NCBI RefSeq assembly: GCF_000828715.1
Contig: NZ_AP014583.1
Location: 2,354,001 to 2,418,000 of the forward strand
Length of the DNA stretch: 64,000 nucleotides
Origin: Winogradskyella sp. PG-2
Lineage (GTDB): Bacteria; Bacteroidota; Bacteroidia; Flavobacteriales; Flavobacteriaceae
Reading direction: 5' to 3'
Part shown: positions 82 through 64,000 of the stretch, piece after piece
Layout: every line of letters begins with the position of its first letter
How positions within the stretch are numbered: position 1 is the stretch's first letter
The notes under the pieces: generated by a model
The model's database searches: none
Seen by the model: the letters and a program-made list of their open reading frames with translations, nothing else
Told to the model about the DNA's origin: nothing
Translations under genes and position numbers: made by a program

Positions 82-299
82 AACGCCCACTGTGTATGTC
101 GTAGTGGGGCGCGCCTCACGGAAAGCCATTGTTGCGCCTGATTAGCTATACACGCTGTTGTGTGTAGTATCGTTCGGAGTTCTCGTAGACTCGACTAAAT
201 ATACATAAAATTGGCGAGGTGCGACAAACAGTGGGCGTTGGAATGTAATTAGTAGAAGGGCAGCGTTTGGAAAACGCGATTCTACGTGCCGCAGGCAAT
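82..299 (-). repeat. repeat A copy 1, truncated by IS3 element
   Basis: First copy of the 229-bp non-coding unit. It runs only to the GGCAAT near its right end, where the IS3 element begins; the last 10 bases (ACATACCAAC) are missing. C-G type at the covarying pair (unit positions 46/132). Confidence 0.9.
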
Positions 300-337
300 T
301 GTCTTGTCCTGAAATATGGCTACAGGTTAAAATTGAA

Positions 338-1216
338 TTAAGCTGATAATTTATATACCATATTTGGTATTTTATAATCTAAAGATAAGTGTAATCTTAT
401 TTCGTTGTATAAATTAATTGCACTTTTTGTGGCTCTTTTCGGGTGAGCGACGTCTGTAAAGGTTTGATCAAGATAAAATTCATCTTTTAAAATCCCGTTA
501 ACTCTTTCTGCCATTGCGTTTTCATAACAATGATTTTTCTCTGTCATACTAATGTCTATTTTTTTTCTTTTAAGTATTTGTGTGTATACATTGCTACAAT
601 ATTGAATACCTCTGTCTGAATGATGAATAAGTTGTTTAATATCTTTCGCTTGATATATAGCTTTATTAAGCGCTCTAACACATCCTTTAAGTTCTAGGCT
701 GTCACTAAGGTCGTATCCTACTATTTTACGAGAATACATGTCCGTAATTAGTGCCAGATAACAAAATCCTTTTACGGTTCTAATGTATGTAATATCAGAA
801 GCCCAAACTTGATTAGGTTTTGTGATTTCTATATCTTTTATAATGTTCTTATACTTATAAAAACGATGATACGAGTTGGTTGTTTTAGCACTAGTTTTCT
901 TTCTAAGTGTTAGCATTTGGTGTTTTCTAAGCACACTAAATAAAGTATCTCTACCAACCTTAACATTGGCTTTATTAAAATCTATGTTTAATGATTTCAC
1001 AAGTTTACGCACGCCTTCTCTAGGAAGAGATTTGCGTCTTTTTCGGACTATGTTAATAATCTTTTGTTCTAGTTTTAAACGGTTGTCAGCTCTAGATTTG
1101 TATTTATAATACGCATCACGTTTAAGTCCGAAACAATGAGTTATAGTCGTTAAAGAAGCAAATTCCTTAGATTTTTCTTTAGCTTTGATTAGGGCTTTAT
1201 ACTTAACTTTTTTTTT
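338..1216 (-). CDS. IS3-family transposase OrfB (DDE integrase domain)
   Basis: Catalytic half of an IS3-type transposase, which cuts and joins element ends. The rve/DDE core is visible: WASDITYI (first Asp), HHSDRGIQYCS (second Asp) and NAMAERVNGILKDE (Glu). An N-terminal region with an HTH_21-like stretch (FGLKRDAYYKYK) is open upstream of the GTG at 1012. There is no ATG in this frame, which stays open back to the A9G run at 1207-1216, so I take the product to be made as an OrfAB fusion by -1 frameshifting, as is known for the family. The sequence closely matches the second copy at 3.6-4.5 kb. The frame looks intact. Confidence 0.85.
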   Translation of the reverse strand, partial: KKKVKYKALIKAKEKSKEFASLTTITHCFGLKRDAYYKYKSRADNRLKLEQKIINIVRKRRKSLPREGVRKLVKSLNIDFNKANVKVGRDTLFSVLRKHQMLTLRKKTSAKTTNSYHRFYKYKNIIKDIEITKPNQVWASDITYIRTVKGFCYLALITDMYSRKIVGYDLSDSLELKGCVRALNKAIYQAKDIKQLIHHSDRGIQYCSNVYTQILKRKKIDISMTEKNHCYENAMAERVNGILKDEFYLDQTFTDVAHPKRATKSAINLYNEIRLHLSLDYKIPNMVYKLSA

Positions 1217-1560
1217 AGTTCAGCGATAGATTTGTAACCTAGATCTTCAGCTGCTACTTCAAGATAACAATCCTTTACCATAGCATCGAGATCCTTTTTA
1301 AGTAGTAGCTTTTTAAGCTGTTCAACCTCTTTTTGAAGTGCCTTAATTCTAGATATTTCGTCTTTTGTTTCCACTTTTACTCTGGTGTTCATTAAGTCTT
1401 TACGATTATACTTTTTAATCCACACATTTACTGTTGTAGGTGCAATAGAGTAGAGTTTACAAAGTTCGCTTTTTGTGTGTTTTCCGGTTGTAAGTTCGGC
1501 TAAAATTTTCAGTTTAAAAGGTTCTGAATACCGTCTAATTACTTTGTCATTTTTATACAT
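1189..1560 (-). CDS. IS3-family transposase OrfA (helix-turn-helix)
   Basis: 123-aa DNA-binding subunit. A helix-turn-helix lies at about residues 10-55 (YSEPFKLKILAEL, then APTTVNVWIKKYN), followed by a leucine-rich coiled coil (EVEQLKKLLLKKDLDAM) as in IS3 OrfA proteins. Its C-terminus (AELKKKLSIKP) is read across the A9G run that links it to OrfB in the -1 frame. About 87% identical by eye to the OrfA of copy 2. Confidence 0.85.
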   Translation of the reverse strand: MYKNDKVIRRYSEPFKLKILAELTTGKHTKSELCKLYSIAPTTVNVWIKKYNRKDLMNTRVKVETKDEISRIKALQKEVEQLKKLLLKKDLDAMVKDCYLEVAAEDLGYKSIAELKKKLSIKP

Positions 1561-1610
1561 AATGTTTAAAATTATGTAGCCTTTATTCAGGACGGGTCAC
1601 AATGCCACAC

Positions 1611-1839
1611 AACGCCCACTGTGTATGTCGTAGTGAGGCGCGCCTCACGGAAAGCCATTGTTGCGCCTGATTAGCTATACACGCTGTTGTGTGTAGTATC
1701 GTTCGGAGTTCTCGTAGACTCGACTAAATATACATAAAATTGGCGAGGTGCGACAAACAGTGGGCGTTGGTATGTAATTAGTAGAAGGGCAGCGTTTGGA
1801 AAACGCGATTCTACGTGCCGCAGGCAATTACATACCAAC
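1611..1839 (-). repeat. repeat A copy 2
   Basis: Full-length 229-bp unit, C-G type. It starts 11 bases after the IS3 element and ends in the ACATACCAAC shared with the next B site. Confidence 0.95.
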
Positions 1840-1880
1840 GTTTTGGCTAAACTGCGTTTTAATGCAGTTTAGGTTTTGTT
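1837..1880 (-). other. attC-like site B1 (44 bp, shortest)
   Basis: AACGTTTTGG, then a perfect CTAAACTGC / GCAGTTTAG hairpin, then GTTTTGTT. It closes the DUF1254 cassette, whose ends are GTTAGCAAA and TTTTTGCTAAC. Confidence 0.7.
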
Positions 1881-3345: not shown

Positions 3346-3563
3346 AACGCCCACTGTGTATGTCGCAGTGAGGCGCGCCTCACGGAAAGCCATTGTTGCG
3401 CCTGATTAGCTATACACGCTGTTGTGTGTAGTATCGTTCGGAGTTCTCGTAGACTCGACTAAATATACATAAAATTGGCGAGGTGCGACAAACAGTGGGC
3501 GTTGGTATGTAATTAGTAGAAGGGCAGCGTTTGGAAAACGCGATTCTACGTGCCGTAGGCAAT
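3346..3563 (-). repeat. repeat A copy 3, truncated by IS3 element
   Basis: Identical layout to copy 1: the unit is cut at the same base (GGCAAT) by the second IS3 element. C-G type. Confidence 0.9.
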
Positions 3564-3603
3564 TGTCTAGTCCTGAAATATGGCTAGAGGTTAAAATTGA
3601 TTT

Positions 3604-4491
3604 TTAAGCTGATAATTTGTATACCATATTTGGTGTTTTATAATCTAAAGATAAATGTAATCTTACTTGATTGTATAAATTAATTGCATTTTTTGCAGCT
3701 CTCTTAGCGTGACTCACGTTATCAAAGGTTTGGTCTAAATAAAATTCATCTTTTAAAATTCCATTTACACGTTCTGCCATTGCATTTTCGTAACAATGAT
3801 TTTCTTCGGTCATACTAATATCTATCTTTTTTCTTTTGAGTATTTGTGTGTATACATTGCTACAATACTGTATTCCTCTGTCCGAATGATGAATAAGTTG
3901 TTTAATGTTTTTAGCTTGATAAATAACCTTATTTAACGCTCTCACGCATCCTTTAAGTTCTAGACTATCACTGAGTTCATAACCTACAATTTTTCTGGAA
4001 TGCATATCTGTTATTAAAGCCAAGTAACAAAAGCCTTTTATTGTTCTAATGTATGTGATGTCGGATACCCAGACTTGGTTTGATCTTGTAACTTTCATCT
4101 CTCTTATAATGTTATTATATTTATAAAACCGATGATAAGAATTAGTTGTTTTGGCACTAGTTTTCTTTCTAAGTGTAAGCATATTGTGTTTTCTAAGGAC
4201 ATTGAATAGTGTATCTCTACCGACTTTAAGGTTGGCCTTTGTAAATTCCTTATCTAATGATATCTTAAGTTTACGTACGCCTTCTCTAGGAAGGGATTTA
4301 CGTCTTTTACTAACAATTTCAATAATCTGTTGTTCTATTTTTAAACGCTTATCAGCTCTAGATTTGTATTTATAATACGCATCTCGTTTAAGTCCAAAAC
4401 AATGGGTTATGGTAGTTAAATCTGCAAATCCCTTAGATTTTACTTTAGCTTTCACTAAGGCTTTATGCTTAACTTTTTTTTTGTTTCGCAA
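3604..4491 (-). CDS. IS3-family transposase OrfB (DDE integrase domain)
   Basis: 295-aa frame starting at a TTG at the orfA end. HTH_21-like N-terminus (ITHCFGLKRDAYYKYKSRA), then KSLPREGVRKL, then the DDE catalytic core with WVSDITYI, HHSDRGIQYCS and NAMAERVNGILKDE. Complete and apparently functional. As in copy 1, the frame crosses an A9G slippery run (4473-4482), so the active enzyme is probably the OrfAB fusion. Confidence 0.9.
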   Translation of the reverse strand: MRNKKKVKHKALVKAKVKSKGFADLTTITHCFGLKRDAYYKYKSRADKRLKIEQQIIEIVSKRRKSLPREGVRKLKISLDKEFTKANLKVGRDTLFNVLRKHNMLTLRKKTSAKTTNSYHRFYKYNNIIREMKVTRSNQVWVSDITYIRTIKGFCYLALITDMHSRKIVGYELSDSLELKGCVRALNKVIYQAKNIKQLIHHSDRGIQYCSNVYTQILKRKKIDISMTEENHCYENAMAERVNGILKDEFYLDQTFDNVSHAKRAAKNAINLYNQVRLHLSLDYKTPNMVYKLSA

Positions 4492-4825
4492 CAGACTTAT
4501 AGCCTAAATCTTCAGCAGCTACCTCAAGGTAAGAATCAAGAACCATAGCATCTAAATCCTTTTTAAGTAATAGTTTTTTAAGTTGCTGAATTTCGTTTTG
4601 AAGTGCTTTAATTCTAGATATTTCGTCTTTAGTTTCCACTTTTACTCTGGTGTTCATTAAGTCTTTACGATTGTACTTTTTAATCCACTCATTGACTGTT
4701 GTGGGTGCAATAGAGTAGAGTTTACAAAGTTCGCTCTTTGTGTGTTTACCTTTACTAAGTTCATCAAGAATTTTTAGTTTAAAGGGTTCTGAATACCTTC
4801 TGATGACTTTGTCATTTTTATACAT
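4469..4825 (-). CDS. IS3-family transposase OrfA (helix-turn-helix)
   Basis: 118-aa DNA-binding subunit with the same HTH (YSEPFKLKILDEL, APTTVNEWIKKYN) and C-terminal leucine-rich coil as copy 1. It overlaps OrfB by 23 bp at the A9G run. Its end (VAKQKKS) differs from copy 1 because the bases after the run have diverged. Confidence 0.88.
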   Translation of the reverse strand: MYKNDKVIRRYSEPFKLKILDELSKGKHTKSELCKLYSIAPTTVNEWIKKYNRKDLMNTRVKVETKDEISRIKALQNEIQQLKKLLLKKDLDAMVLDSYLEVAAEDLGYKSVAKQKKS

Positions 4826-4875
4826 AATAATTAAAATTATGTAGCCTTTTTTTAGGACGGGTCACTATTACTTAT

Positions 4876-4995
4876 AACGGTCTAGTGTATGAGTAACGTA
4901 TTCTAAATTACTACTTTTTAGAAAGCTATATACTTCATTTGAAATAAAAAAACGGTTTGAATATTAACTCAAACCGCTATTACTTACAAATAATG
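4876..4995 (-). other. attC-like site B2, degenerate right end
   Basis: Left end AACGGTCTAGTGTATGAG is typical. The right end (CGCTATTACTTACAAATAATG) has lost the GTT core by comparison with B12 (CGCTATTACTTATACACGTTGTT). Adjacent to IS3 copy 2. Confidence 0.5.
4944..4976 (-). terminator. rho-independent-like terminator
   Basis: On the minus strand, GCGGTTTGA - loop - TCAAACCG is followed by a T7 run. It lies about 50 bp after the stop of the amidohydrolase gene, inside site B2. Confidence 0.6.
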
Positions 4996-5022
4996 CTATG
5001 CTGATTTTTATACGAATTCTTT

Positions 5023-6809: not shown

Positions 6810-6932
6810 AACGTTTGTGTGTAAGAATAGTTGCGGGTTTTTACACAAGAATTTTTGAAAGTAAAAGTAGAAGTTACAAACATGCAAGATCTTGTGATTT
6901 AGCACTAAATCGGAATTGTTTTATACAATGTT
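6810..6932 (-). other. attC-like site B3
   Basis: AACGTTTGTGTGTAAG ... TTTTATACAATGTT. The arms pair through GTGTA / TATAC. It follows the trypsin-like protease gene. Confidence 0.6.
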
Positions 6933-7795: not shown

Positions 7796-7923
7796 TACGT
7801 CTGCGGTTTGTATATGAAAAGTAGCAGGTTTTTAAGAGCTACTTTCCCGCTAGTAATAAAGATAGTAGAAAACAAACAAACTTTTAATTTAACCCTTAAC
7901 CGCTATTTTTTATATACTTTGTT
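7796..7923 (-). other. attC-like site B4, degenerate left core
   Basis: ACGTCTGCGGTTTGTATATGAAAAGTAGC ... CGCTATTTTTTATATACTTTGTT, same family as B10 and B11. The AACG core has drifted. Closes the sigma-factor cassette. Confidence 0.6.
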
Positions 7924-9859: not shown

Positions 9860-10088
9860 AACGCCCACTGTGTATGGCGTAGTGAGGCGCGCCTCACGGA
9901 AAGCTATTGTTGCGCCTGATTAGCTATACACGCTGTTGTGTGTAGTATCGTTCGGAGTTCTCGTAGACTCGACTAAATATACATAAAATTAGCGAGGTGC
10001 GACAAACAGTGGGCGTTGGTATGTAATTAGTAGAAGGGCAGCGTTTGGAAAACGCGATTCTACGTGCCGTAGGCAATTACATACCAAC
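9860..10088 (-). repeat. repeat A copy 4
   Basis: Full 229 bp, T-A type at the covarying pair. Upstream neighbour of nothing but B5; downstream (on plus) of the sigma cassette. Confidence 0.95.
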
Positions 10089-10209
10089 GTGTTCGTGTAT
10101 AATTTCGTTGCGTTTTTAAGCAACTAAATTAGTAAATACAAACTGAATAGAAAATCCGCGAGGATTTTCGTAAGTAGGCTATATCTAGCAATGAATTATA
10201 CACGGTGTT
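10086..10209 (-). other. attC-like site B5
   Basis: AACGTGTTCGTGTATAA ... TTATACACGGTGTT with internal hairpin GAAAATCC-GCGA-GGATTTTC. Cassette ends GTTGCC / GGCAAC. Confidence 0.75.
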
Positions 10210-10785: not shown

Positions 10786-10905
10786 AACGTGTTTGTATAT
10801 GGTTTGTTGCGTGTTTAAGCACTAAAGTTAGCAAATAAAACACAGATAGAAAGTCCGCTAGGACTTTCGCAAGAAGACACTAACTAGCAATGAATTATAC
10901 ACGGC
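10786..10905 (-). other. attC-like site B6, left part, interrupted by IS110
   Basis: AACGTGTTTGTATATGG ... GAAAGTCC-GCTA-GGACTTTC ... TTATACACGG. The expected TGTT follows only after the IS110 element, at about 12198. Confidence 0.7.
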
Positions 10906-11115
10906 TTAAGTTTGTCTTTTAATAAATTTGATACTTAATCAGAAAGAATAAAAGAGAGAATTAAGGTTACTATACACGGTGAAGCTTTTGACTTCGACAA
11001 CATTGATAATCCTCTCTTTTTTCTACTTTTATCACGTTCAGTTCTGTGAGACTTTAAATCTCGATTTCAAGTTGTTGTGAGTGCAAGTAGATTATTCTTT
11101 CATAAATCAGTTCTT
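10906..11115 (+). ncRNA. candidate IS110 bridge-RNA region
   Basis: Non-coding left end of the IS110 element. Published IS110 elements transcribe a bridge RNA from the region upstream of the recombinase, with loops matching target and donor DNA. I cannot fold it here; the call rests on position only. Confidence 0.35.
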
Positions 11116-12083
11116 ATGAATAAATATAGTGAAACTTTTGGAATCGATATTAGTAAAGATGTTTTTGATTGTTATGGCAGTACACAAGGTCATTTACAGT
11201 TTAAAAATACAGAATCAGGTTTTAAAAAGTTTCAGAAATTATTACGTAAAGATAGTTTGGTAGTTATGGAAGCTACGGGTTACTATCATTACAGATTTGC
11301 TCAGTTTCTTTATCATCAAGGCTTTGTAGTTTCTGTAGTAAATCCTTTATCTATAAAGCGTTTTATACAAATGAAGTTAGCAAAAGTAAAGACAGATAAG
11401 AGTGACGCTAAAGCTATTTGTAACTATGGTTTAAGTCAAGAAGTTCCTTTGTATAATGCTTTAACAGAAGTTCAAAGCGAGTGTTTACAGTTGTTTAGAT
11501 GGATGGATAGTTTATTAAAAAAACGAACAGCTACTAAGAATAAGATCCATGGAGAAAAGTTTTAGGGATCCCATCTAAATATGTTTACCATTCTTTGAGT
11601 AGAACCTTAAAGCATTTAGATAGAGAGTTGCAAGGAATCGATAAGAAACTATTAAGTTTAGAAGAGCAAGATCAACAAAAACAACTTACTTTGTTAAAAA
11701 GTATACCAGGAATAGGAGTAAAGACAGCTTTGTTTTTAATAGTAATTACAGATGGGTTTAAAAAATTTGAAACGGCATCACAGTTGTGTAGTTATTCAGG
11801 AGTAACGCCCACAATAAGAGCGTCTGGAAGTAGTGTTCGAGGTAGGTCAAGAATAAGTAAAGTAGGAAATCGAAAATTGAGAAATTTATTATTTCTATGT
11901 GCTTTTAGTGCTTATAAGTATAATAAAGGATGTAGAGAACTTTACGAACGAATTGTAAACAAAGGTAAAAGTAAAAAGTTAGCCATGTTAGCAGTTTTTA
12001 ATAAGCTATTAAAACAAGCCTTTGCTATAGCAAAATCTGGTATTCCATATGATGAAACTCACGTTTCATTATTACCTAAATAG
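11116..12083 (+). pseudogene. IS110-family transposase, frameshifted
   Basis: DEDD-type recombinase. The N-terminal RuvC-like part is read in one frame (FGIDISKDVFDCYGS with catalytic Asp, VVMEATGYYHYRFAQFL, VKTDKSDAKAICNYG) and ends after NKIHGEKF. The C-terminal Transposase_20 part is in another frame (LTLLKSIPGIGVKTALFLI, then CSYSGVTPTIRASGSSVRGRSRISKVGNRKLR with the catalytic Ser region). The frames rejoin if one base is corrected in the GAAAAG around 11559, giving the usual HGE-KVLGIPSKYVYHSL. So this copy carries a single-base frameshift and is probably inactive, unless recoding occurs. Confidence 0.85.
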
Positions 12084-12197
12084 CATATAGTAAAATAGAA
12101 TAATAAAAGCTCAAAAAACTAGCGTTTAGAATTTTGAGCCTAGCATAAAATTGTAAAAATTTAACGAAGAATTTATTTGTTTTTTAACTCAGTTCTT

Positions 12198-13752: not shown

Positions 13753-13981
13753 AACGCCCACTGTGTATGGCGTAGTGAGGCGCGCCTCACGGAAAGCCAT
13801 TGTTGCGCCTGATTAGCTATACACGCTGTTGTGTGTAGTATCGTTCGGAGTTCTCGTAGACTCGACTAAATATACATAAAATTGGCGAGGTGCGACAAAC
13901 AGTGGGCGTTGGTATGTAATTAGTAGAAGGGCAGCGTTTGGAAAACGCGATTCTACGTGCCGTAGGCAATTATATACCAAC
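13753..13981 (-). repeat. repeat A copy 5
   Basis: Full 229 bp, C-G type. The right end is ATATACCAAC (one C-to-T change in the body end, allowing G-T pairing), as in copies 11 and 21. Confidence 0.95.
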
Positions 13982-14100
13982 GTATTGGTGTATGATTTCG
14001 TTACGTAGTTTAAACACTAAATTTAGCAAATAAAACGACGGTACACGAACTAGCAATGTCTCGAGCGCAGCGAATGGGTGAAATAATCATACACGGTGTT
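13979..14100 (-). other. attC-like site B7
   Basis: AACGTATTGGTGTATGA ... TCATACACGGTGTT. It is followed after only four bases by another AACGG, so either an empty body or a deleted cassette lies here. Confidence 0.6.
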
Positions 14101-14200
14101 TGCTAACGGTTTATTTCCTTTTCAATTATTTGTATTTTTTATTTGAGGGTAAGTCGTCCCATTTTTATTCGTACCATGATAGCAAATCTATGACTTTCGA

Positions 14201-14232
14201 TTTGTATAGAATTAGTTTAATTTGTAATTTCG
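14201..14232 (+). promoter_or_regulatory. candidate Bacteroidetes promoter for the Ser-rich secreted protein
   Basis: TTTG, 20 bases, then TAATTTCG (TAnnTTTG with one mismatch), ending 39 bp before the chosen ATG. Suits a plus-strand gene that cannot use read-through from its minus-strand neighbours. Confidence 0.5.
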
Positions 14233-14270
14233 CACCACAATTAAATGTCTTTAAATTATATGTCTTTTCC

Positions 14271-14990
14271 ATGAAAAAAATTTTATTATTACTCGCAATG
14301 CTTCCTTCATGCCTTATGGCCCAAGAAAAAATAGGAAATAAAATCTATAAATATGGTGATCTTTACCATGCCATAGAGGGTACTTCACTAATATCATTTG
14401 AGAAAGCTGACGCAAAATCAATGAGCAAAACCCTTGACTATTTCGCTAAGGCTAGGGCAAATGTAAAATCTATGAATTCTCTTTTTCTACCAGGTTCAGA
14501 TGTGAGTGAGGATGAGTTTAGTAGAGTACTCGATGAAAATAAAATTGAAACGTTAATAGTAATTGAAATTATTGATTCTTCAGAAGCCAATATGATTAGA
14601 ACAACGTCCTCTGCTTATGCCGTGGTCAACAAGAAAAAAGAAATATCTGGCTCTTCATCCAGTGAAAGATCTGGCTCTTCATCTAGTCAAACATCTGGTT
14701 CTTCATCTTATGGACGTTCTAGCTCTTCAGGTAACGCTTCATATAATGCAAAAGCCAAGTTAAAGTCTACCTCTTCATCTGGCTCTACGAGTACCACAAA
14801 AAATAGTAATTATACTACTGAAATGAGTTTGCGTTTAACTATTTTCTCTAAAAAAGATAGTTTTAAAGCACCTGTTGCTGTGGTTGAAGGAAGAGCAACC
14901 AATGGCAGTCCAGACACCACTGATGATCAAATTGCGAGACGAATTGTTAGAAGAATGGTAAAAGCTTTAGACGAGCAGAGAGCCTTTTAG
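14271..14990 (+). CDS. secreted protein with Ser-rich low-complexity linker
   Basis: 239 aa from MKKILLLLAMLPSCLMAQ, a clear signal peptide; the frame is open further upstream but without coding character. An N-terminal domain (residues 20-120) has alternating helices and strands and ends ETLIVIEIIDSS. It is followed by about 60 residues of Ser/Gly repeats (SGSSSSERSGSSSSQTSGSS). The C-terminal part (TTEMSLRLTIFSKKD ... IARRIVRRMVKALDEQRAF) looks folded. No family recognised. It is the only normal-length, non-IS gene on the plus strand, so it is reversed relative to the array. Confidence 0.7.
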   Translation: MKKILLLLAMLPSCLMAQEKIGNKIYKYGDLYHAIEGTSLISFEKADAKSMSKTLDYFAKARANVKSMNSLFLPGSDVSEDEFSRVLDENKIETLIVIEIIDSSEANMIRTTSSAYAVVNKKKEISGSSSSERSGSSSSQTSGSSSYGRSSSSGNASYNAKAKLKSTSSSGSTSTTKNSNYTTEMSLRLTIFSKKDSFKAPVAVVEGRATNGSPDTTDDQIARRIVRRMVKALDEQRAF

Positions 14991-14994
14991 ATAT

Positions 14995-15055
14995 AACGGT
15001 GGGGCTAAACAAAAAATAAGTCATTATTAAAATAGCCCTCCCAACCGCATCCTGT
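14995..15055. terminator. stem-loop after the Ser-rich gene
   Basis: AACGGTGGGGCTA pairs imperfectly with TAGCCCTCCCAACC across about 25 bases. It could be a terminator or a decayed attC-like site. Confidence 0.35.
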
Positions 15056-15208
15056 TATCTTTTGCCAAAATAGGCTTAAAACATTTGTCTTTTTGATTCA
15101 ATCATTCTGGCGTACACTGCTATAAACTGAATGCTTTAACCTTAGATTGATACAGTCTAAAGAACAGAAAAACAAACCCTATAAAAAAGTGTTATCTATA
15201 GGTTTGCC

Positions 15209-15362
15209 AACGTATTGGTGTATGACCGCGTTGTGTGGTTTAAGTACTAAATTTAGTAAATAAGACGCAGATAGACCGCCTGCGAGGACTTTCAGACTTA
15301 AACACTAACTAGTCTAGTAATGACCCGAGCACAGCGAATAGGCTTAGCCATGATACACAGTT
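15209..15362 (-). other. attC-like site B8
   Basis: AACGTATTGGTGTATGACC ... CATGATACACAGTTTT; the right core is imperfect (CAGTT for GTGTT). Same family as B7 and B9. Confidence 0.6.
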
Positions 15363-16213: not shown

Positions 16214-16338
16214 AGCGTATTGGTGTATACTCTCCTTGAGATGTTTAAGCACTAAATTTAGCAAATAATTCACAGATAGAAAGTCCGCTAGGACTTTCGC
16301 AAGTAGGCGAGTACTAGCAATGAATTATACACGGTGTT
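16214..16338 (-). other. attC-like site B9
   Basis: AGCGTATTGGTGTATAC (core A mutated to G) ... hairpin GAAAGTCC-GCTA-GGACTTTC ... TTATACACGGTGTT. Closes the esterase cassette. Confidence 0.65.
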
Positions 16339-48850: not shown

Positions 48851-49034
48851 GGTCACGTATATGAAACGTAGCATGTAAATAGACGCTTACTTTTCGGATT
48901 ATACACAAGCCAAATTTTTATGTTTTGTTTTTATCTTTTTATTCTAAAAGCCAAATTTAAAAATTTGGCGGTCTTGGCAAACACACATAAACCTTTCGGA
49001 AAGCCTATATTAGCTATGTTTTATATACATTGTT
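48848..49034 (-). other. attC-like site B28
   Basis: AACGGTCACGTATATGAAACGTAGC ... TAGCTATGTTTTATATACATTGTT with a central CCAAATTTAAAAATTTGG hairpin. Cassette ends GTTGTGCCTCGTACT / AGTATGAGGCACAAC. Confidence 0.8.
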
Positions 49035-49968: not shown

Positions 49969-50197
49969 AACGCCCACTGTGTATGGCGTAGTGAGGCGCG
50001 CCTCACGGAAAGCCATTGTTGCGCCTGATTAGCTATACACGCTGTTGTGTGTAGTATCGTTCGGAGTTCTCGTAGACTCGACTAAATATACATAAAATTG
50101 GCGAGGTGCTACAAACAGTGGGCGTTGGTATGTAATTAGTAGAAGGGCAGCGTTTGGAAAACGCGATTCTACGTGCCGCAGGCAATTACATACCAAC
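49969..50197 (-). repeat. repeat A copy 17
   Basis: Full 229 bp, C-G type, with GGTGCTACAAAC as in copy 7. Confidence 0.95.
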
Positions 50198-50383
50198 GGT
50201 CTTGTGTATGAAACGTAGCGTTGCCTAAAATTAGTATATTATGGTTAAACAATGAGCCGAGTTTTTATATTTTGTGCTTGTTTATCACGTTTTATGCTTA
50301 AAAATCTAAAAAATTGGCGGTAAAAGCAAGTAAACACATACCTTATGATAAGCCAAAACTAGCTATGTTTTATACATGGTGTT
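50195..50383 (-). other. attC-like site B29
   Basis: AACGGTCTTGTGTATGAAACGTAGCG ... TAGCTATGTTTTATACATGGTGTT. Closes a gene-less body. Confidence 0.8.
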
Positions 50384-50589
50384 GTGCGGTCGTTATTTCT
50401 TATTCAGCCTGATTTATCCGTTAGTCTTTATCCGTCGTCCTGATCCGTTTTACCTCAAACCTGAACCTAATCTTTGCGAAAATCCGTGCGCTCTGTACCA
50501 GATTTATCCATCAAAAAATGCGATTCGTTTTAGTGATTAGTATCTGTTTTATTTTGAGTGATCGCGAGTGCATTTTAATGACGCACAAC
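50381..50589. other. gene-less cassette body
   Basis: 209 bp bounded by GTTGTGCGGTCGTT and AATGACGCACAAC, like the coding cassettes, but with no ORF over about 40 codons on either strand. Internally it has direct echoes (TTTATCCGTTAGTC, TTTATCCGTCGTCC, TTTATCCATC). May be a small RNA, a very short ORF, or a remnant. Confidence 0.55.
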
Positions 50590-50815
50590 GCCCACTGTGT
50601 ATGGCGTAGTGAGGCGCGCCTCACGGAAAGCCATTGTTGCGCCTGATTAGCTATACACGCTGTTGTGTGTAGTATCGTTCGGAGTTCTCGTAGACTCGAC
50701 TAAATATACATAAAATTGGCGAGGTGCGACAAACAGTGGGCGTTGGTATGTAATTAGTAGAAGGGCAGCGTTTGGAAAACGCGATTCTACGTGCCGCAGG
50801 CAATTACATACCAAC
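50587..50815 (-). repeat. repeat A copy 18
   Basis: Full 229 bp, C-G type. Confidence 0.95.
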
Positions 50816-50939
50816 GGAATTGTGTATGGTTAGTTGCGTGGCTAAGCAACTAAATTAGTAAACAAATATGAACCTGAGAAAATTCCGAAGGAATTTTCCA
50901 AATAAGCACTTGCCAAAGCAATTAATTATACACGGTGTT
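50813..50939 (-). other. attC-like site B30
   Basis: AACGGAATTGTGTATGGTTAG ... GAAAATTCC-GAA-GGAATTTTC ... TTATACACGGTGTT. Near twin of B19. Cassette ends GTTGGCTTTAGTTT / AAATTAAAGCCAAC. Confidence 0.82.
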
Positions 50940-52163: not shown

Positions 52164-52290
52164 AACGGTCTCGGCTATGATTTCGTTGTGGACATTTCCG
52201 AGAGGAAACTGTCCGCCGAAACCTAACCTTGGCTTAAAGTTAAGAATTTCCCGTTAGAAAATCCTGCCACAATGAATTATAGCCATTGTT
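52164..52290 (-). other. attC-like site B31
   Basis: AACGGTCTCGGCTATGATTTCG ... AATGAATTATAGCCATTGTT. Cassette ends GTTGTGCTTTCGTTA / TAATGAAGCACAAC. Confidence 0.8.
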
Positions 52291-53106: not shown

Positions 53107-53335
53107 AACGCCCACTGTGTATGGCGTAGTGAGGCGCGCCTCACGGAAAGCTATTGTTGCGCCTGATTAGCTATACACGCTGTTGTGTGTAGTATCGTTC
53201 GGAGTTCTCGTAGACTCGACTAAATATACATAAAATTAGCGAGGTGCGACAAACAGTGGGCGTTGGTATGTAATTAGTAGAAGGGCAGCGTTTGGAAAAC
53301 GCGATTCTACGTGCCGTAGGCAATTACATACCAAC
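53107..53335 (-). repeat. repeat A copy 19
   Basis: Full 229 bp, T-A type. Confidence 0.95.
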
Positions 53336-53437
53336 GTTAAGGCTATGCGTAGTGGTACAAACTGAATAGATAAAAACAATATGGCTAAAAAGGAAACGCT
53401 AAAAGATATTAATGAAGCATTACGCATAGGTAGTGTT
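53333..53437 (-). other. attC-like site B32, contains a plus-strand start codon
   Basis: AACGTTAAGGCTATGCGTAGTGG ... GCATTACGCATAGGTAGTGTT. Arms pair through ATGCGTA / TACGCAT. Cassette ends GTTATGCTTTGTTTT / AAATAAAGCATAAC. Confidence 0.7.
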
Positions 53438-53605
53438 ATGCTTTGTTTTCATTTACAATTAAATATAGAGCATTGGGGGACATATAGGAAGGGGGATATT
53501 CTCAAAACATATATCAATCTATTGGATGAAGATAATGGACTAGCAAGGTTTGGGATAGAAAAGCATTGGACTATAATAAGTTGTGAGTTTGTAAATAAAG
53601 CATAA
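53381..53605 (+). CDS. small hypothetical protein, begins inside site B32
   Basis: 74 aa: MAKKETLKDINEALRIGSVM, then IEHWGTYRKGDILKTYINLL and GIEKHWTIISCEFVNKA. Soluble mixed alpha/beta, no family recognised. The ATG lies in the loop of site B32, and the TAA stop is part of the GCATAAC boundary, so the ORF spans the site arm and fills the whole body. It reads opposite to the array. Confidence 0.55.
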   Translation: MAKKETLKDINEALRIGSVMLCFHLQLNIEHWGTYRKGDILKTYINLLDEDNGLARFGIEKHWTIISCEFVNKA

Positions 53606-53806
53606 CGCTGAGTATATCATTCGTTATTTTTAGCGAATTAACTTAAAACATAAATTATGACAACAGATGAACAATTAGATGCACTTATAGAAAGAATAAG
53701 TGAACATAAAAATATTAGTGAAAAGGATAAAAAGCCCCTAATAGATAATATACTATGGATACAAGCAGGAATGTCAGCTAAAAATAATGAAATGATATAT
53801 AATGTT
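53604..53806 (-). other. attC-like site B33
   Basis: AACGCTGAGTATATCATTCG ... GAAATGATATATAATGTT; arms pair through TATATCATT / AATGATATA. Cassette ends GTTAGGAAGTCT / AATGACTCCTAAC. Contains the first half of the next ORF. Confidence 0.65.
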
Positions 53807-53905
53807 AGGAAGTCTGTTTTTAGAGAAGTTTTAGAAGACTATAATGACTATGATTCTAAATCTGATTTTGTTGAGTGGTTAAGAGATGAGGCAAATGACT
53901 CCTAA
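53657..53905 (+). CDS. small acidic hypothetical protein, begins inside site B33
   Basis: 82 aa, helical and acidic: MTTDEQLDALIERISEHKNI, KPLIDNILWIQAGMSAKNN, then VFREVLEDYNDYDSKSDFVEWL. No family recognised. The start is in the site, and the stop TAA is the boundary CCTAAC. Codon use is like ordinary genes here. Confidence 0.55.
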   Translation: MTTDEQLDALIERISEHKNISEKDKKPLIDNILWIQAGMSAKNNEMIYNVRKSVFREVLEDYNDYDSKSDFVEWLRDEANDS

Positions 53906-54014
53906 CGCTTGTGTAAACCTCGTAAACTAAATAATTATGAAAAACAGAAAAGATTTTATAACAGACAAGCATCAAAGATTAATAAATGATAGTGATGAGG
54001 TTTTACACCTTGTT
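53904..54014 (-). other. attC-like site B34
   Basis: AACGCTTGTGTAAACCTCG ... GATGAGGTTTTACACCTTGTT; arms pair through GTAAACCTC / GAGGTTTTAC. Cassette ends GTTATGCGTAGTTTT / AATTACGCATAAC. Contains the start of the next ORF. Confidence 0.68.
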
Positions 54015-54167
54015 ATGCGTAGTTTTTTAGAGCGTAAAGCTGAGGAATTAGGCACTAATTATGAAAGTTTATATGTTCAAATAACCTTTGATAGTATAGA
54101 AATATTAAAAGATGAAGGGGTTTACAGTGAATCAATAGAAACGATTCAAAGTATAACAGTAAGGTAA
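53937..54167 (+). CDS. small hypothetical protein, begins inside site B34
   Basis: 76 aa: MKNRKDFITDKHQRLINDSD, VMRSFLERKAEELGTNYESLYVQITFDSIEIL, VYSESIETIQSITVR. Soluble, no family recognised. It starts in the loop of site B34 and crosses the GTT core in frame; it ends 8 bp before the next boundary. A competing minus ORF in the same place has no coding character. Confidence 0.5.
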   Translation: MKNRKDFITDKHQRLINDSDEVLHLVMRSFLERKAEELGTNYESLYVQITFDSIEILKDEGVYSESIETIQSITVR

Positions 54168-54175
54168 TTACGCAT

Positions 54176-54364
54176 AACGTTTGGGCTATGGTTAGTACGG
54201 GAATTAAAAGTAGTGAATTTCCGATTAAGCACTTAGCCAAAACTTTTTTATTTTGTTTTATATTTTCTATTTTAAAGCCAAATCAAAAAGATTTGGCGGA
54301 CTTTATAAAAATACACTAAACTTTGGATTAAACACCAAAACCCGTATTAATTATAGCCATTGTT
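54176..54364 (-). other. attC-like site B35
   Basis: AACGTTTGGGCTATGGTTAG ... AATTATAGCCATTGTT with a central GCCAAATC...GATTTGGC hairpin. Cassette ends GTTAGCTAC / GTAGCTAAC. Confidence 0.78.
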
Positions 54365-55054: not shown

Positions 55055-55283
55055 AACGCCCACTGTGTATGGCGTAGTGAGGCGCGCCTCACGGAAAGCC
55101 ATTGTTGCGCCTGATTAGCTATACACGCTGTTGTGTGTAGTATCGTTCGGAGTTCTCGTAGACTCGACTAAATATACATAAAATTGGCGAGGTGCGACAA
55201 ACAGTGGGCGTTGGTATGTAATTAGTAGAAGGGCAGCGTTTGGAAAACGCGATTCTACGTGCCGCAGGCAATTACATACCAAC
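55055..55283 (-). repeat. repeat A copy 20
   Basis: Full 229 bp, C-G type. Confidence 0.95.
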
Positions 55284-55405
55284 GTGATTGTGTATGGTTA
55301 GTTGCGTGGTTAATCATCTAATTTAGCAAATAAATCACAGATAGAATATTCCGCAGGAATGTTCTTAAGTCCGCAGTGAACTAGCAATTAATTATACACG
55401 GTGTT
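55281..55405 (-). other. attC-like site B36
   Basis: AACGTGATTGTGTATGGTTAG ... ATATTCC-GCA-GGAATGTT ... TTATACACGGTGTT. It closes the first of two duplicated DUF6090 bodies; the other copy has a different site (B39). Confidence 0.8.
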
Positions 55406-56441
55406 AGCCTTTCGTTTTTTCATAAATTGCACTAATATTTCCACCCCAACTTAAATATAATTCTCCTTTTTTTGATCGATTAAAAATCACTAAGAGCGGA
55501 CTACTTTTTCTCTTATCAACGAAAATTGAATTGTCGTACCATAAAATCTCTACATCATCAAAATCTTCATTAGAAAGAAATAATTGACCATTTACTTCTT
55601 TAATTTCAATAGTCTTATCCCAAGAATTATTCACAGTTTCTTTTAATTCATAATTCCCTACAACTTTATTTAAACCCAAAGAATCCTTAATTGAGTTATA
55701 CGTTACATTTTCAGGAATAGAATCTTTACTTTTAAGTAGTTCAGCTATTTTATTATACAAACGAATTGCGTCTATTTTATATTTTTTACTTTGACTAAAT
55801 AAATTTACTCTATCATTCATATATTTAATCACCATATTTTTATAATGATTATCAGTAAGGACATAGTTTATTAGCTCTTCTGAAACTAATCCTTTTGCTT
55901 GTTCTTGATACCAATTAAAATTTGATAACTCATCGAGATTTTTGTAAACAGTTGAACGAATTCTTTCATTATAATTATCAAGAGTAGTTTTATCGGTTTC
56001 GTATAAATTTTTCAAATCCTTAATTATATAACTATACTTTTCTGGCACATTATCAATATTTCTTTTAAAATTATCATAACCATTCGAAATAGTATTGAAA
56101 GAGCGATAATTATAGCCTATAGTTACATAGTTTTCTGTTCTATAATCTTCGTAGGTATACTTATCATTCAATATTAGTTTTGCAATTGAATCTGTATAAA
56201 TTTGATAATCAAAAATCGTTTTTGAATTCTCAATATCCTTCACTAAATCATTTTGAACCTCTTTTAAGATACTTGTTATTTTGTCCTCATTAATTTTTTT
56301 CTGATTACTATTATTAATATTTAGCGCAATTAAAATACCAATAACAACTAAAACTATTTCTCCAATAGCATATAGCAAATATTTACTGAATTTGTTTTCA
56401 GTAAGTAAATTTTGACGGATTTTTCGGAAGAATTTAATCAT
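55404..56441 (-). CDS. DUF6090 family protein, duplicate copy 1
   Basis: 345 aa. N-terminal hallmark MIKFFRKIRQNLLTENKFSK, then LLYAIGEIVLVVIGILIALNINN as membrane helix; a long helical middle (residues 50-230) and a C-terminal beta part (KTIEIKEVNGQLFLSNEDFDDVEILWYDNSIFVD). The stop TAA is supplied by the boundary GGCTAAC. The body is repeated at 59.0-60.1 kb with one visible substitution (Arg here, Ser there). Function unknown. Confidence 0.88.
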   Translation of the reverse strand: MIKFFRKIRQNLLTENKFSKYLLYAIGEIVLVVIGILIALNINNSNQKKINEDKITSILKEVQNDLVKDIENSKTIFDYQIYTDSIAKLILNDKYTYEDYRTENYVTIGYNYRSFNTISNGYDNFKRNIDNVPEKYSYIIKDLKNLYETDKTTLDNYNERIRSTVYKNLDELSNFNWYQEQAKGLVSEELINYVLTDNHYKNMVIKYMNDRVNLFSQSKKYKIDAIRLYNKIAELLKSKDSIPENVTYNSIKDSLGLNKVVGNYELKETVNNSWDKTIEIKEVNGQLFLSNEDFDDVEILWYDNSIFVDKRKSSPLLVIFNRSKKGELYLSWGGNISAIYEKTKG

Positions 56442-56470
56442 TGGTTTCTTGGTTGATCTTAATGAAGGCT

Positions 56471-56656
56471 AACGGTCTTGTGTATGAAACGTAGCGTGTA
56501 AAAAGACACTAACTTTTCGGATTAACACAGAGCCGAATTTTTATATTTTGTTTTAATTTATCAATCTTAAAAGCCAAATTAAAAATTTGGCGGTCATTGC
56601 AAATAAGTACAAACCTTTCGGTTAAGCACTTATTAGCTATGTTTTATACACCGTGT
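56471..56656 (-). other. attC-like site B37
   Basis: AACGGTCTTGTGTATGAAACGTAGCG ... TAGCTATGTTTTATACACCGTGTT with central GCCAAATTAAAAATTTGGC. Cassette ends GTTACCAACTGGCT / GGCTTGTTGGTAAC. Confidence 0.8.
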
Positions 56657-56670
56657 TACCAACTGGCTTT

Positions 56671-57444: not shown

Positions 57445-57627
57445 AACGTTTGGTGTAAGGAACGTAGGGCAGAGGATAAGCACTGTCTTTCGAATTCTCA
57501 CTAAGCCAAATTTACATATTTTGCTTTTATTTTTCTCTAAATGCCAAATTGGAAATTTGGCGACCACATAAAGAAACCCAATCCTTTTGTACAAGCCCAA
57601 ATGGCCCTATGTTTTTTACACGTTGTT
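57445..57627 (-). other. attC-like site B38
   Basis: AACGTTTGGTGTAAGGAACGTAGGGC ... GCCCTATGTTTTTTACACGTTGTT with central GCCAAATTGGAAATTTGGC. Cassette ends GTTGTAATGCGTTTA / TTAATGCATTACAAC. Confidence 0.78.
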
Positions 57628-58692: not shown

Positions 58693-58921
58693 AACGCCCA
58701 CTGTGTATGGCGTAGTGAGGCGCGCCTCACGGAAAGCCATTGTTGCGCCTGATTAGCTATACACGCTGTTGTGTGTAGTATCGTTCGGAGTTCTCGTAGA
58801 CTCGACTAAATATACATAAAATTGGCGAGGTGCGACAAACAGTGGGCGTTGGTATGTAATTAGTAGAAGGGCAGCGTTTGGAAAACGCGATTCTACGTGC
58901 CGTAGGCAATTATATACCAAC
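58693..58921 (-). repeat. repeat A copy 21
   Basis: Full 229 bp, C-G type, ATATACCAAC end. Last repeat A before the right edge; the final 5 kb has none. Confidence 0.95.
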
Positions 58922-59043
58922 GTGTTTGTATATGGTTTGTTGCGTGTTTTAAGCACCTAATTTAGCAAATAATTACCGACCAAGAAAGTCCGCGAGGACT
59001 TTCGCAAGTAAGCTAGAATTAGCAATAAATTATATACGGTGTT
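58919..59043 (-). other. attC-like site B39
   Basis: AACGTGTTTGTATATGG ... GAAAGTCC-GCGA-GGACTTTC ... TTATATACGGTGTT. Belongs to the second DUF6090 duplicate and differs widely from B36. Confidence 0.8.
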
Positions 59044-60079
59044 AGCCTTTCGTTTTTTCATAAATTGCACTAATATTTCCACCCCAACTTAAATATAATT
59101 CTCCTTTTTTTGATCGATTAAAAATCACTAAGAGCGGACTACTTTTTCTCTTATCAACGAAAATTGAATTGTCGTACCATAAAATCTCTACATCATCAAA
59201 ATCTTCATTAGAAAGAAATAATTGACCATTTACTTCTTTAATTTCAATAGTCTTATCCCAAGAATTATTCACAGTTTCTTTTAATTCATAATTCCCTACA
59301 ACTTTATTTAAACCCAAAGAATCCTTAATTGAGTTATACGTTACATTTTCAGGAATAGAATCTTTACTTTTAAGTAGTTCAGCTATTTTATTATACAAAC
59401 TAATTGCGTCTATTTTATATTTTTTACTTTGACTAAATAAATTTACTCTATCATTCATATATTTAATCACCATATTTTTATAATGATTATCAGTAAGGAC
59501 ATAGTTTATTAGCTCTTCTGAAACTAATCCTTTTGCTTGTTCTTGATACCAATTAAAATTTGATAACTCATCGAGATTTTTGTAAACAGTTGAACGAATT
59601 CTTTCATTATAATTATCAAGAGTAGTTTTATCGGTTTCGTATAAATTTTTCAAATCCTTAATTATATAACTATACTTTTCTGGCACATTATCAATATTTC
59701 TTTTAAAATTATCATAACCATTCGAAATAGTATTGAAAGAGCGATAATTATAGCCTATAGTTACATAGTTTTCTGTTCTATAATCTTCGTAGGTATACTT
59801 ATCATTCAATATTAGTTTTGCAATTGAATCTGTATAAATTTGATAATCAAAAATCGTTTTTGAATTCTCAATATCCTTCACTAAATCATTTTGAACCTCT
59901 TTTAAGATACTTGTTATTTTGTCCTCATTAATTTTTTTCTGATTACTATTATTAATATTTAGCGCAATTAAAATACCAATAACAACTAAAACTATTTCTC
60001 CAATAGCATATAGCAAATATTTACTGAATTTGTTTTCAGTAAGTAAATTTTGACGGATTTTTCGGAAGAATTTAATCAT
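59042..60079 (-). CDS. DUF6090 family protein, duplicate copy 2
   Basis: 345 aa, the same as copy 1 except for one Ser instead of Arg (DAISLYN). Same membrane-anchor N-terminus and domains, same stop formed by the boundary TAAC. Identity covers the whole body, from GTTAGCC to GGCTAACGGT, and stops there on both sides. The duplication therefore moved the body alone. Confidence 0.88.
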   Translation of the reverse strand: MIKFFRKIRQNLLTENKFSKYLLYAIGEIVLVVIGILIALNINNSNQKKINEDKITSILKEVQNDLVKDIENSKTIFDYQIYTDSIAKLILNDKYTYEDYRTENYVTIGYNYRSFNTISNGYDNFKRNIDNVPEKYSYIIKDLKNLYETDKTTLDNYNERIRSTVYKNLDELSNFNWYQEQAKGLVSEELINYVLTDNHYKNMVIKYMNDRVNLFSQSKKYKIDAISLYNKIAELLKSKDSIPENVTYNSIKDSLGLNKVVGNYELKETVNNSWDKTIEIKEVNGQLFLSNEDFDDVEILWYDNSIFVDKRKSSPLLVIFNRSKKGELYLSWGGNISAIYEKTKG

Positions 60080-60108
60080 TGGTTTCTTGGTTGATCTTAA
60101 TGAAGGCT

Positions 60109-60232
60109 AACGGTTTTGTATAAGATTAGTTGCGTATTTTAAGAACTAAAGTTAGCAAATAAATCACAGATAGAAAGTCCGCGAGGACTTTCGTAAATAG
60201 GCTAGAACTAGCAATTAATTTTATACGTTGTT
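60109..60232 (-). other. attC-like site B40
   Basis: AACGGTTTTGTATAAGATTAG ... GAAAGTCC-GCGA-GGACTTTC ... TTTTATACGTTGTT. Cassette ends GTTGTAGGTAGTTA / TAATTACCTACAAC. Confidence 0.8.
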
Positions 60233-61702: not shown

Positions 61703-61826
61703 AACGAGTTTGTGTATGATTTCGTTGCGTGTTTCAGCAACTAAATTAGCAAATACAAACCGAATAGAAAATCCGCGAGGATTTTCGTAAGTAGGCGAGT
61801 ACTAGCAATGAATTATACACGGTGTT
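61703..61826 (-). other. attC-like site B41
   Basis: AACGAGTTTGTGTATGATTTCG ... GAAAATCC-GCGA-GGATTTTC ... TTATACACGGTGTT. Cassette ends GTTACAGGTCGTTA / TAATGACCTGTAAC. Confidence 0.8.
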
Positions 61827-62998: not shown

Positions 62999-63019
62999 TG
63001 GTTTGTTTTAATGACCTGT

Positions 63020-63146
63020 AACGGTTTTGGCTATGATTTTGTTACGGAAAAATCAGGAGGATTTTTTCGTCATAGCACTTACTATAGTAAATATACAAGG
63101 ATTTTCCGATTAGGAAAATCCGCCGTAATAAATTATAGCCATTGTT
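63020..63146 (-). other. attC-like site B42
   Basis: AACGGTTTTGGCTATGATTTTG ... AATAAATTATAGCCATTGTT with GGAAAATCC-GCC hairpin. Cassette ends GTTGTGCTTTCGTTA / TAATGAAGCACAAC, the same as the other DUF6090 cassette at 52.3 kb. Confidence 0.8.
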
Positions 63147-63159
63147 GTGCTTTCGTTAA

Positions 63160-63927
63160 TTAATAATTTTTTAATTCTGATTTAATTAGATTTCTCAGGC
63201 TATTATTTTCTTCAATTACAATTTTTATTCGCGTGTAGAAATCATTCCATTTTACATTAATCTCAAATAAAAGTTGTTGAAATTTATCTGTTTTTGCTAA
63301 TTGAATTAATCCATTTTTATCAAGTAAATTTTTTCCATTGAGCTGTTTATATGAATAATCTTCAAAATTTTTATCTTTTAGATAAAACCAATTTTCAGTA
63401 TTGTAAAGTTTTTCTTCTGCAAGTAAGGGCTTTAATTTATTTTCAATTAGAGGGGTGAGTTGGCCTAAATAAATAGACTCCATATCATCTATGCTTCTTG
63501 TATATGTGATTAATGCTTCTTTAATTTTTGTATTATTTATGGTTTCCGCTTTTTCACCAAAACCAGAATTAATAAGTTGTTTAAAATACAAAGATCTTCT
63601 TATTAGAGTTGGCTCTGAAATTGAGTCTAAAGATTTGTTGTCTACTCCCACTTTAAATAGCTCTAAATGTAGTTTTTCAATCTGTTTAAACTGTTGAGTG
63701 TAATATTTAAACTGTATGGAATCCGTACCTAAATTTTTGTAAATATTGGTTAAGACATTTTTTTCTACATTCTTAAATTTTCGATTTTCATTCCAATTAT
63801 TTATTCCCAATGCAATTAAAATACCAATAACTACAAGAAGAATTTCGCCAATTGCGTACTTAAAGTACTTCCTGGTTTTTCCTTCTGAAAGTAAATTTTG
63901 TCTAATTTTTCTAAAGAATTTTATCAT
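63160..63927 (-). CDS. DUF6090 family protein
   Basis: 255 aa. MIKFFRKIRQNLLSEGKTRK, then FKYAIGEILLVVIGILIALGINNWNE as membrane anchor, then a helical domain (residues 50-250). Fourth DUF6090 of the window; closest in layout to the one at 52.3-53.1 kb. Function unknown. Complete within the window. Confidence 0.88.
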   Translation of the reverse strand: MIKFFRKIRQNLLSEGKTRKYFKYAIGEILLVVIGILIALGINNWNENRKFKNVEKNVLTNIYKNLGTDSIQFKYYTQQFKQIEKLHLELFKVGVDNKSLDSISEPTLIRRSLYFKQLINSGFGEKAETINNTKIKEALITYTRSIDDMESIYLGQLTPLIENKLKPLLAEEKLYNTENWFYLKDKNFEDYSYKQLNGKNLLDKNGLIQLAKTDKFQQLLFEINVKWNDFYTRIKIVIEENNSLRNLIKSELKNY

Positions 63928-63955
63928 TGATTAATTGTTGGTTATAATGAAGCAC

Positions 63956-64000
63956 AACGGTCATGTGTATGAAACGTAGCGTTGCTTAAAAGTAGTATAT
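63956..64000 (-). other. attC-like site B43, cut by window edge
   Basis: AACGGTCATGTGTATGAAACGTAGCG is the left arm of the B28/B29/B37 family. The array continues beyond the window. Confidence 0.75.

Follow-up and report, generated by a model that had tools for sequence, protein, structure and literature searches.

The flavobacterium Winogradskyella sp. PG-2 carries long tandem arrays of gene cassettes on its chromosome, and these represent, with a probability of roughly 0.87, a chromosomal integron-type cassette platform of Bacteroidota in which a XerA-like tyrosine recombinase would act on an attI-like site and on attC-like sites. The stretch under study (hereafter the window; 64,000 nucleotides, bases 2354001-2418000 of the one-contig genome of 3.81 Mb) is the middle of array 1, which extends over ~104 kb, beginning with an A site (defined below) at 2338159 and reaching the attI junction near 2442369. 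On the same chromosome, array 2 lies at ~2.52-2.58 Mb and array 3 at 3.265-3.282 Mb, and small site groups are present at 1.075 and 1.98 Mb. An initial annotation, made from the letters of the window, had proposed that Flavobacteriaceae possess a large cassette system which is integron-like but distinct. This proposal holds well, as the array is bordered at one end by a recombinase and an attI-like site, cassettes move as exact units, and other genera are organized alike. Since the IntI-specific domain and the RYYYAAC/GTTRRRY core of canonical integrons are both missing as defining features, the system is described here as integron-like in its working and is not filed as a canonical integron.

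The window holds 62 sites, each running from AAC to GTT and all of a single polarity, comprising 41 diverse sites (B sites) and 21 near-identical ones (A sites). The initial annotation had counted 43, which comes near if an A site and the B site 68 bp beyond it are taken as one, but the actual number is 62. B sites are mostly 121-127 or 183-190 bp long; in gene direction (minus strand), a typical B site reads AAC-ACC-GTGTATAATTCATTGC ... GCAACGAAATCATACAC-AAACAC-GTT with a variable middle, and its inverted boxes are separated by spacers of 3 and 6 nucleotides (nt). Conservation is confined to AAC and GTT, after which six variable bases (N6) follow. A covariance model built from 25 of the window's B sites (R1) gives at least 113 matches at E<=1 over the whole chromosome, mainly within three large clusters; with 150 of 4,658 candidates scored, this count is a lower bound. 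The site array is real and far above chance. Within the window, an Rfam scan gave no match at gathering scores and a tRNA scan gave no match. Outside the arrays, isolated R1 sites, some of them weak, occur at chromosome positions 131500, 216676, 2856647, 3029886, 3607290, and 3647227, possibly as single cassettes inserted elsewhere on the chromosome.

The bodies between the sites are those of tandem, one-directional cassettes. Across the whole of array 1, the 71 gene bodies (bodies of at least 150 bp) have a median size of 876 bp and a range of 161-8,002 bp, and their longest open reading frame (ORF) starting with ATG lies on the minus strand, that of the array, in 65 of the 71, on the plus strand in three, and is shorter than 50 amino acids (aa) in three. 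The picture drawn earlier, of tandem bodies bounded by GTT and AAC, palindromic sites of one polarity and genes mostly on one strand, is borne out. The three bodies whose longest ORF opposes the array direction lie within window positions 14101-15208 and 53438-54175. The array is large and looks active.

Each body starts with GTT-N6 and finishes with the complement of its own N6 followed by AAC, and N6 varies from body to body. Among the 71 gene bodies of array 1, the two ends of one body agree at 5.20 of 6 positions on average (52 perfect), compared with 2.12 (standard deviation, sd, 0.17; maximum 2.70 of 2,000) for random pairings of starts with ends and with 2.5 for the two flanks of one site as they stand in the array (n=46). 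One truncated A site was removed before this test and those that followed it; the site at 63956 kept an uncorrected end here, so that one body loses its match. Agreement is found in 59-64 of the 71 bodies at each of positions 1-6, drops to 34 at position 7 and 8 at position 8, and rises again at positions 9 (43/71) and 10 (61/71), where T is frequent at both ends. Of the bodies wholly inside the window, 28/43 have perfect ends, 34/43 match at five or more of the six bases, and 7/43 at two or fewer; by our reading, all of these seven contain or border either an insertion sequence (IS) element or a site that is weak or degenerate. The same rule is followed in other genera, where 71 of 78 bodies from 10 loci of nine genera are perfect, with a mean of 5.77 vs 2.09 (sd 0.15). 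The latter test drew on 92 hits from 11 loci (the full set being 121 hits from 20 loci) and was confined to bodies of 100-4000 bp whose model ends are GTT and AAC; the locus L069 gave none.

In an excised circle the two body ends flank the site, so that pairing of the N6 would extend the hairpin of the site. By predicted folding energy, the circle form surpasses the array form at 55 of 67 sites, with means of -21.4 and -17.6 kcal/mol, respectively. We read the N6 complementarity as the mark of a structural requirement of the cassette in its circular state. In the proposed mechanism, the XerA-like recombinase encoded at the 5' end of the array would be the actor that recombines the attI-like site with the attC-like sites. 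A cassette would consist of one body (GTT...AAC, with at least one gene, mostly in array direction) together with the site on its 3' side, and in the excised circle the body ends would flank the site and the variable N6 would pair. The enzyme would then bind one particular strand, folded into a hairpin whose outer arms are AAC/GTT plus N6 and whose inner arms are GTGTAT/ATACAC, with an unequal spacer of 3 and 6 nt. Strand exchange would take place at GTT, with new cassettes entering mainly at attI and leaving by recombination between two sites. The single-strand step is considered probable. The same cassette system might also recombine its sites in double-stranded form, as Xer does at dif, and this is the alternative that survives best, although it is unlikely. 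It would suit the attI of type II loci (recombinase co-oriented with the array; divergent in type I), which is itself an inverted repeat, and the presence of one body beside two different sites, as two-end exchange would yield. Nevertheless, it offers no reason why a body should carry complementary N6 ends of its own, nor does it account for the predicted advantage of the circle form in folding.

The candidate enzyme lies beside the array. Of five PF00589 matches in the genome, one is a 375-aa tyrosine recombinase at the 5' end of array 1 (chromosome 2442413-2443540, minus strand). The initial annotation had stated that no integrase was in view, which is correct for the window, but the recombinase is encoded 24 kb past the window end, at the array end beside which a search had been advised. 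The genes beyond it are presumably housekeeping genes of the Era/EngA type. A divergent relative of 355 aa (match at 3281753-3282817, plus strand) is located at the 5' end of array 3 and is oriented divergently. For the XerC-like and XerD-like genes at 2650889 and 3116480, the closest R1 hit is ~71 kb and ~86 kb away, respectively; the fifth match is a protein of 217-233 aa near the other end of array 1. XerC and XerD were considered as the array enzyme and rejected, as their genes are far from the arrays and they form a separate group in the tree. Both the 375-aa and the 355-aa enzyme carry PF00589, a SAM-like domain, and an extra N-terminal stretch of ~85-105 residues. The R, K, H, R, H, and Y columns, which we take to be the catalytic residues, are invariant in 14 aligned members. 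Within the genus, the recombinases of one further genome (G187) and of a Winogradskyella ursingii locus (L088) are 78% identical to that of this genome.

Next to the recombinase is a site that resembles attI in its position and conservation. Downstream of the stop codon of type II genes, just before GTT, an inverted repeat is conserved (in this genus, for example, GGATATA...TATATCC followed by AATT), and beyond GTT the first cassette differs between loci. Of the 27 type II loci printed for this check, L092 is without the motif by eye and L090 ends at GTT. Type I genes have a differently worded site (ATAT...GTGTT or similar) on their 5' side, seen by eye in 9/12 loci and not in L024, L104, and L115. 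When the recombinase locus of array 1 was compared by BLAST, 9 of the 14 matches listed ended at 88338-88369 in window numbering, that is, no more than 31 bp from the AAC/GTT junction at 88369-88371, where the first cassette joins. These nine are eight loci of the same genus and L061; the match of the closest relative, G182 (86.8% over 1,233 bp), ends at 88368. The remaining five matches come from other genera and stop within the recombinase gene, at 88445-88453. The inverted-repeat site beside the recombinase thus has the placement of an attI and is termed attI-like.

These enzymes bear on the possibility that the system is a canonical integron of IntI and attC that has merely diverged, which is very improbable. 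The architecture is the same, V. cholerae IntI4 (2a3v) is among the best matches in sequence and fold, and the 375-aa enzyme passes NF040815 (242.8 against a cut-off of 220), a XerA-type model whose description also mentions integron integrase, though the 355-aa enzyme does not (199.2). However, the integron integrase model TIGR02249 scores 199.5 and 184.6 for the 375-aa and 355-aa enzymes, both below its cut-off of 265. An IntI-family integrase with the IntI-specific additional domain was not found at these arrays: the alignment of the 355-aa enzyme with 2a3v breaks where 2a3v has ~33 further residues, and these are taken for the IntI-specific insert. Moreover, in a tree of 81 hand-chosen proteins (those above 520 residues reduced to their last 420), IntI (16), type II (16), and type I (5) each form one group at 100/100, IntI standing apart from the other two; the mutual order of the three is not settled by this tree. 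An additional group, at 97/97, unites fourteen Bacteroidota enzymes, those of L068 and L069 among them. A fold search placed XerA and IntI4 as the top chains by E-value with low TM-scores (0.41-0.51 by query in the rows above rank 9), and it carries no conclusion. The sites differ as well, as the core GTTRRRY/RYYYAAC cited in the initial annotation does not apply here, each half being present in 2/96 sites. Finally, a phylum-wide sample of 296 genomes includes 84 in which TIGR02249 exceeds its cut-off (one of the same class, the others of the same phylum, none of the same family). When 20 IntI loci of the phylum were searched with R1, 3 hits were obtained, confined to 2 loci, the remaining 18 being without such sites. 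One of these loci (L180, genome G271) has a single flavobacterial-type site, at L180:8649-8772, ~1 kb from a canonical IntI gene.

The association of recombinase and sites extends to relatives. Among 149 genomes of the family (one per genus), 107 have matches to the 355-aa recombinase at E<=1e-30, an upper bound since the weakest of them (frames of ~300 aa, E near 1e-31) may be Xer-like; within the genus, 53/60 genomes match the 375-aa recombinase at E<=1e-40. In 20 stretches from 19 genomes of relatives, R1 sites (E<=0.1; 121 hits) stand beside the recombinase in all 20, the nearest site being 390-3,479 bp away. These stretches were picked from the family-wide matches before the sites were inspected, roughly by rank of E-value with many near contig ends skipped, with G014 and G131 added, and the table of nearest sites has 23 rows taken from the R1 hit list. 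The array is on the 3' side of the recombinase in the same direction in 16/20 and on the 5' side in the opposite direction in 4/20, all of the 355-aa type, and hence the sites always point away from the enzyme. Together with arrays 1 and 3, a recombinase gene thus adjoins the array in every one of these loci. R1 hits are present at 14 of 80 named loci, each belonging to a Bacteroidota record, and in 13 the hits are on the 3' side; the one with hits on the 5' side, L130, has an enzyme of the type I tree group. The covariance search advised in the initial annotation also succeeded beyond this chromosome, with R1 matches in 21/22 complete or near-complete genomes of the family and in 78/296 genomes of the phylum sample. 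At E<=1e-4, R1 found nothing in the other 218/296, the stricter filters used there losing weak matches. Of two further genomes, G143 has a site that lies ~1 kb from a recombinase gene in truncated form, and neither array-type enzyme nor sites were found in G023. It is fairly probable that Bacteroidota, and above all Flavobacteriaceae, harbour integron-type platforms in which at least three non-IntI recombinase lineages serve one family of hairpin sites, the third lineage being the group beside types I and II, and in which the folding requirement would be written into nearly every cassette as a private, compensating N6.

The comparison of arrays within this one genome bears on movement. Arrays 1 and 2 have two cassettes in common (762 + 773 bp) with 0 mismatches over 1,535 bp. 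The two touch each other in array 1, and array 2 has a 1,110-bp cassette exactly between them (2565173-2566282, with an ORF of 318 aa and own ends matching 6/6). The two sites that would need to recombine around this cassette have AACGGT in common and then diverge, which is too short for homologous recombination. Similarly, arrays 1 and 3 share 984 bp at 100% identity, and this stretch includes one whole cassette. In array 3 the cassette comes first after attI, the position expected of the newest insertion, and the common DNA ends at AAC. The array-1 copies lie past the window end. The pattern is that of cassettes gained, lost or copied as exact units, and the refuting condition set in the initial annotation, that bodies never move as units, did not hold between the arrays of this genome. 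It is very improbable that the sites are interspersed repeats, like miniature inverted-repeat transposable elements or repetitive extragenic palindromes, reshuffled by ordinary homologous recombination beside a bystander recombinase: the sites are indeed direct-orientation repeats, and the 58 genome matches of a 34-base stretch of the A element are such as a spreading repeat would have, but the junctions fall within the 6-nt AACGGT, or the 3-nt AAC at attI, with sequences that differ right beyond, the end complementarity goes with the body and not with the site flanks, which counts against this reading, and the recombinase adjoins the sites in 20/20 relatives' loci.

Several observations weigh against the cassette-platform reading. 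The first concerns a 1,065-bp body that occurs twice in the window (55406-56470 and 59044-60108, minus strand; one mismatch, 99.9% identity) with different B sites on both sides. The 3' sites of its two copies differ at ~42/125 positions, which simple exchange at GTT alone does not predict; this suggests that exchange also takes place at the AAC side, or that the site was replaced. Secondly, 11 of the 71 bodies have fewer than 5/6 matching end bases. Among the relatives, L053 is supported by one weak site and L052 starts with a weak site. Furthermore, the complete genomes G059 and G071 have 22 and 30 R1 hits, respectively, but their recombinase matches are only of Xer length (298-328 aa), apart from a weak match in G071 that spans 59 residues of a 387-aa frame and is distant from the array there; arrays can therefore exist without a nearby enzyme, or another enzyme serves them. 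When the PF00589 matches of this genome were set beside its R1 clusters, array 2 was found to be without a recombinase of its own. Lastly, the AlphaFold model of the recombinase has a predicted TM-score of 0.53.

Among known systems, the sedentary chromosomal integrons of the Vibrio superintegron type are alike in having a recombinase gene and an attI-like site at one end, dozens of mostly co-directed cassettes, imperfect-palindrome sites with an unequal spacer, toxin-antitoxin and unknown-gene cargo, and exact unit movement. Compared with these, the flavobacterial recombinase falls outside IntI and is without the IntI-specific insert, it may be co-oriented or divergent, the core is GTT-N6 with an N6 private to the cassette instead of GTTRRRY, and there are a body of 8 kb and a gene-less cassette with 58 genome matches. 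The archaeal XerA / NF040815 family provides the best relatives of the catalytic part in sequence and fold, whereas the array enzymes differ by their extra N-terminal residues and serve cassette arrays rather than a single dif site. The classical IntI integrons of other Bacteroidota classes share the phylum and differ in the absence of the family from the 84 genomes mentioned above and of such sites from most of their IntI loci. As regards the literature (the cited papers are represented by excerpts), the IntI-specific domain has been used to define and find integrons (PMC9668308), and the IntI insert is described as essential for integron function, though not fully conserved in an integron-like subgroup (PMC8138268). 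Folding of the bottom strand, an unpaired central spacer, and extrahelical bases are listed as features of attC (PMC8946536). Bacteroidota are named among the phyla with integrons (PMC9668308, PMC8618304), and the excerpt on IntegronFinder 2.0 names one complete integron in Bacteroidetes proper, in Salinibacter (PMC9024848). Judged by titles and the beginnings of abstracts, none of the open-licence PMC papers listed in the literature searches describes such a system of Flavobacteriaceae, which falls short of proving absence.

The platform described here has the architectural and evolutionary signs of an integron and runs without the IntI-specific domain. If this holds true, gene capture through folded single-stranded sites would need no IntI insert, and a large bacterial family would possess a cassette system missed by integron finders that rely on it. 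Two old questions would thereby become testable, namely the route of tyrosine recombinases to folded single strands and the single or multiple origin of integrons. Additionally, the arrays point to a large pool of mobile genes for which the open-licence literature searched yielded no description.

The A sites belong to a gene-less cassette, a unit of a 68-bp body with complementary ends and a 158-bp palindromic site (AACGCCCACTGT...ACAGTGGGCGTT), which far exceeds the other observed cassettes in both number and uniformity. The 21 window copies have 219-230 bases equal to one reference copy over a 230-base stretch, and in 18 of them the A site is separated from a B site by the 68-bp body. With a stretch of 34 bases taken from A, 58 matches are obtained genome-wide, 57 of them in the same orientation, and the stretch is present in 6/60 genomes of the genus, its own genome counted. 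A role of the A cassette as a mobile promoter is not claimed. On its array-direction strand, TTTG...TATATTTA is loosely promoter-like by eye, with one mismatch to the Bacteroidetes consensus, and may be a chance resemblance. The A sites, all on the minus strand like the other features listed here, occupy 82-239 (copy 1), 1611-1768, 3346-3503 (copy 3), 9860-10017, 13753-13910, 17215-17372, 18820-18977, 21316-21473, 23889-24046, 24730-24887, 33082-33239, 34283-34440, 36219-36376, 40715-40872, 42051-42208, 48622-48779, 49969-50126, 50587-50744, 53107-53264, 55055-55212, and 58693-58850 (copy 21). Following copy 4, the 68-bp body at 10018-10085 has the ends GGTATGTAATT and AATTACATACC. The bodies belonging to copies 1 and 3 are interrupted by two rve-type insertion sequences (window ~300-1600 and 3540-4860; ~85% alike), which we take to be IS3-like; a 97.5% copy of the first is present in array 2. 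An IS110-type element (PF01548, PF02371; ~10905-12190) is situated at the GTT end of the B site at 10786-10907. Relatives of IS1111 are described as targeting attC sites of classical cassettes (PMC11187229, excerpt).

The B sites of ordinary form are located at 6810-6932, 10086-10209, 13979-14100, 17441-17563, 19046-19169, 21542-21663, 24956-25079, 34509-34633, 35471-35594, 36445-36569, 38149-38275, 40941-41067, 43511-43635, 44185-44307, 45585-45706, 46408-46528, 47157-47277, 47900-48022, 50813-50939, 52164-52290, 55281-55405, 58919-59043, 60109-60232, 61703-61826, and 63020-63146. Long forms are present at 42277-42463, 48848-49034, 50195-50383, 54176-54364, 56471-56657, 57445-57627, and 63956-64000, the last continuing beyond the window end to ~64139. 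The weak, short or degenerate sites are 4876-4997 (27.2 bits), 53333-53437 (18.5 bits), 53904-54014 (21.1 bits), 33308-33366 (59 bp), 7802-7923 (GTT end degenerate), and 15209-15362 (154 bp as paired, of which R1 matches 15209-15327). Other departures are the loss of the GTT end at 10786-10907 beside the IS110-type element, AGC in place of AAC at the plus-strand start of 16214-16338, and a GGCTAT/ATAGCC variant at 24115-24239.

The cargo of the cassettes is ordinary integron-like accessory content, with a Pfam match in 19 of the 20 cassette proteins scanned. It includes Peptidase S41, esterases, histidine kinases, a DJ-1/PfpI protein, a nitroreductase, an ABC ATPase, a cation-efflux protein, and three beta-lactamase-fold PF00144 proteins. 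The largest body, of 8.0 kb (25080-33081), has several ORFs, two of which encode a histidine kinase and an ABC-transporter ATPase, and its own ends GTGCAT/ATGCAC match 6/6. The body at 35595-36218 carries a ParE/ParD toxin-antitoxin pair, again with own ends of 6/6, and a Fic protein of the cargo also matches phage-defence candidate models.

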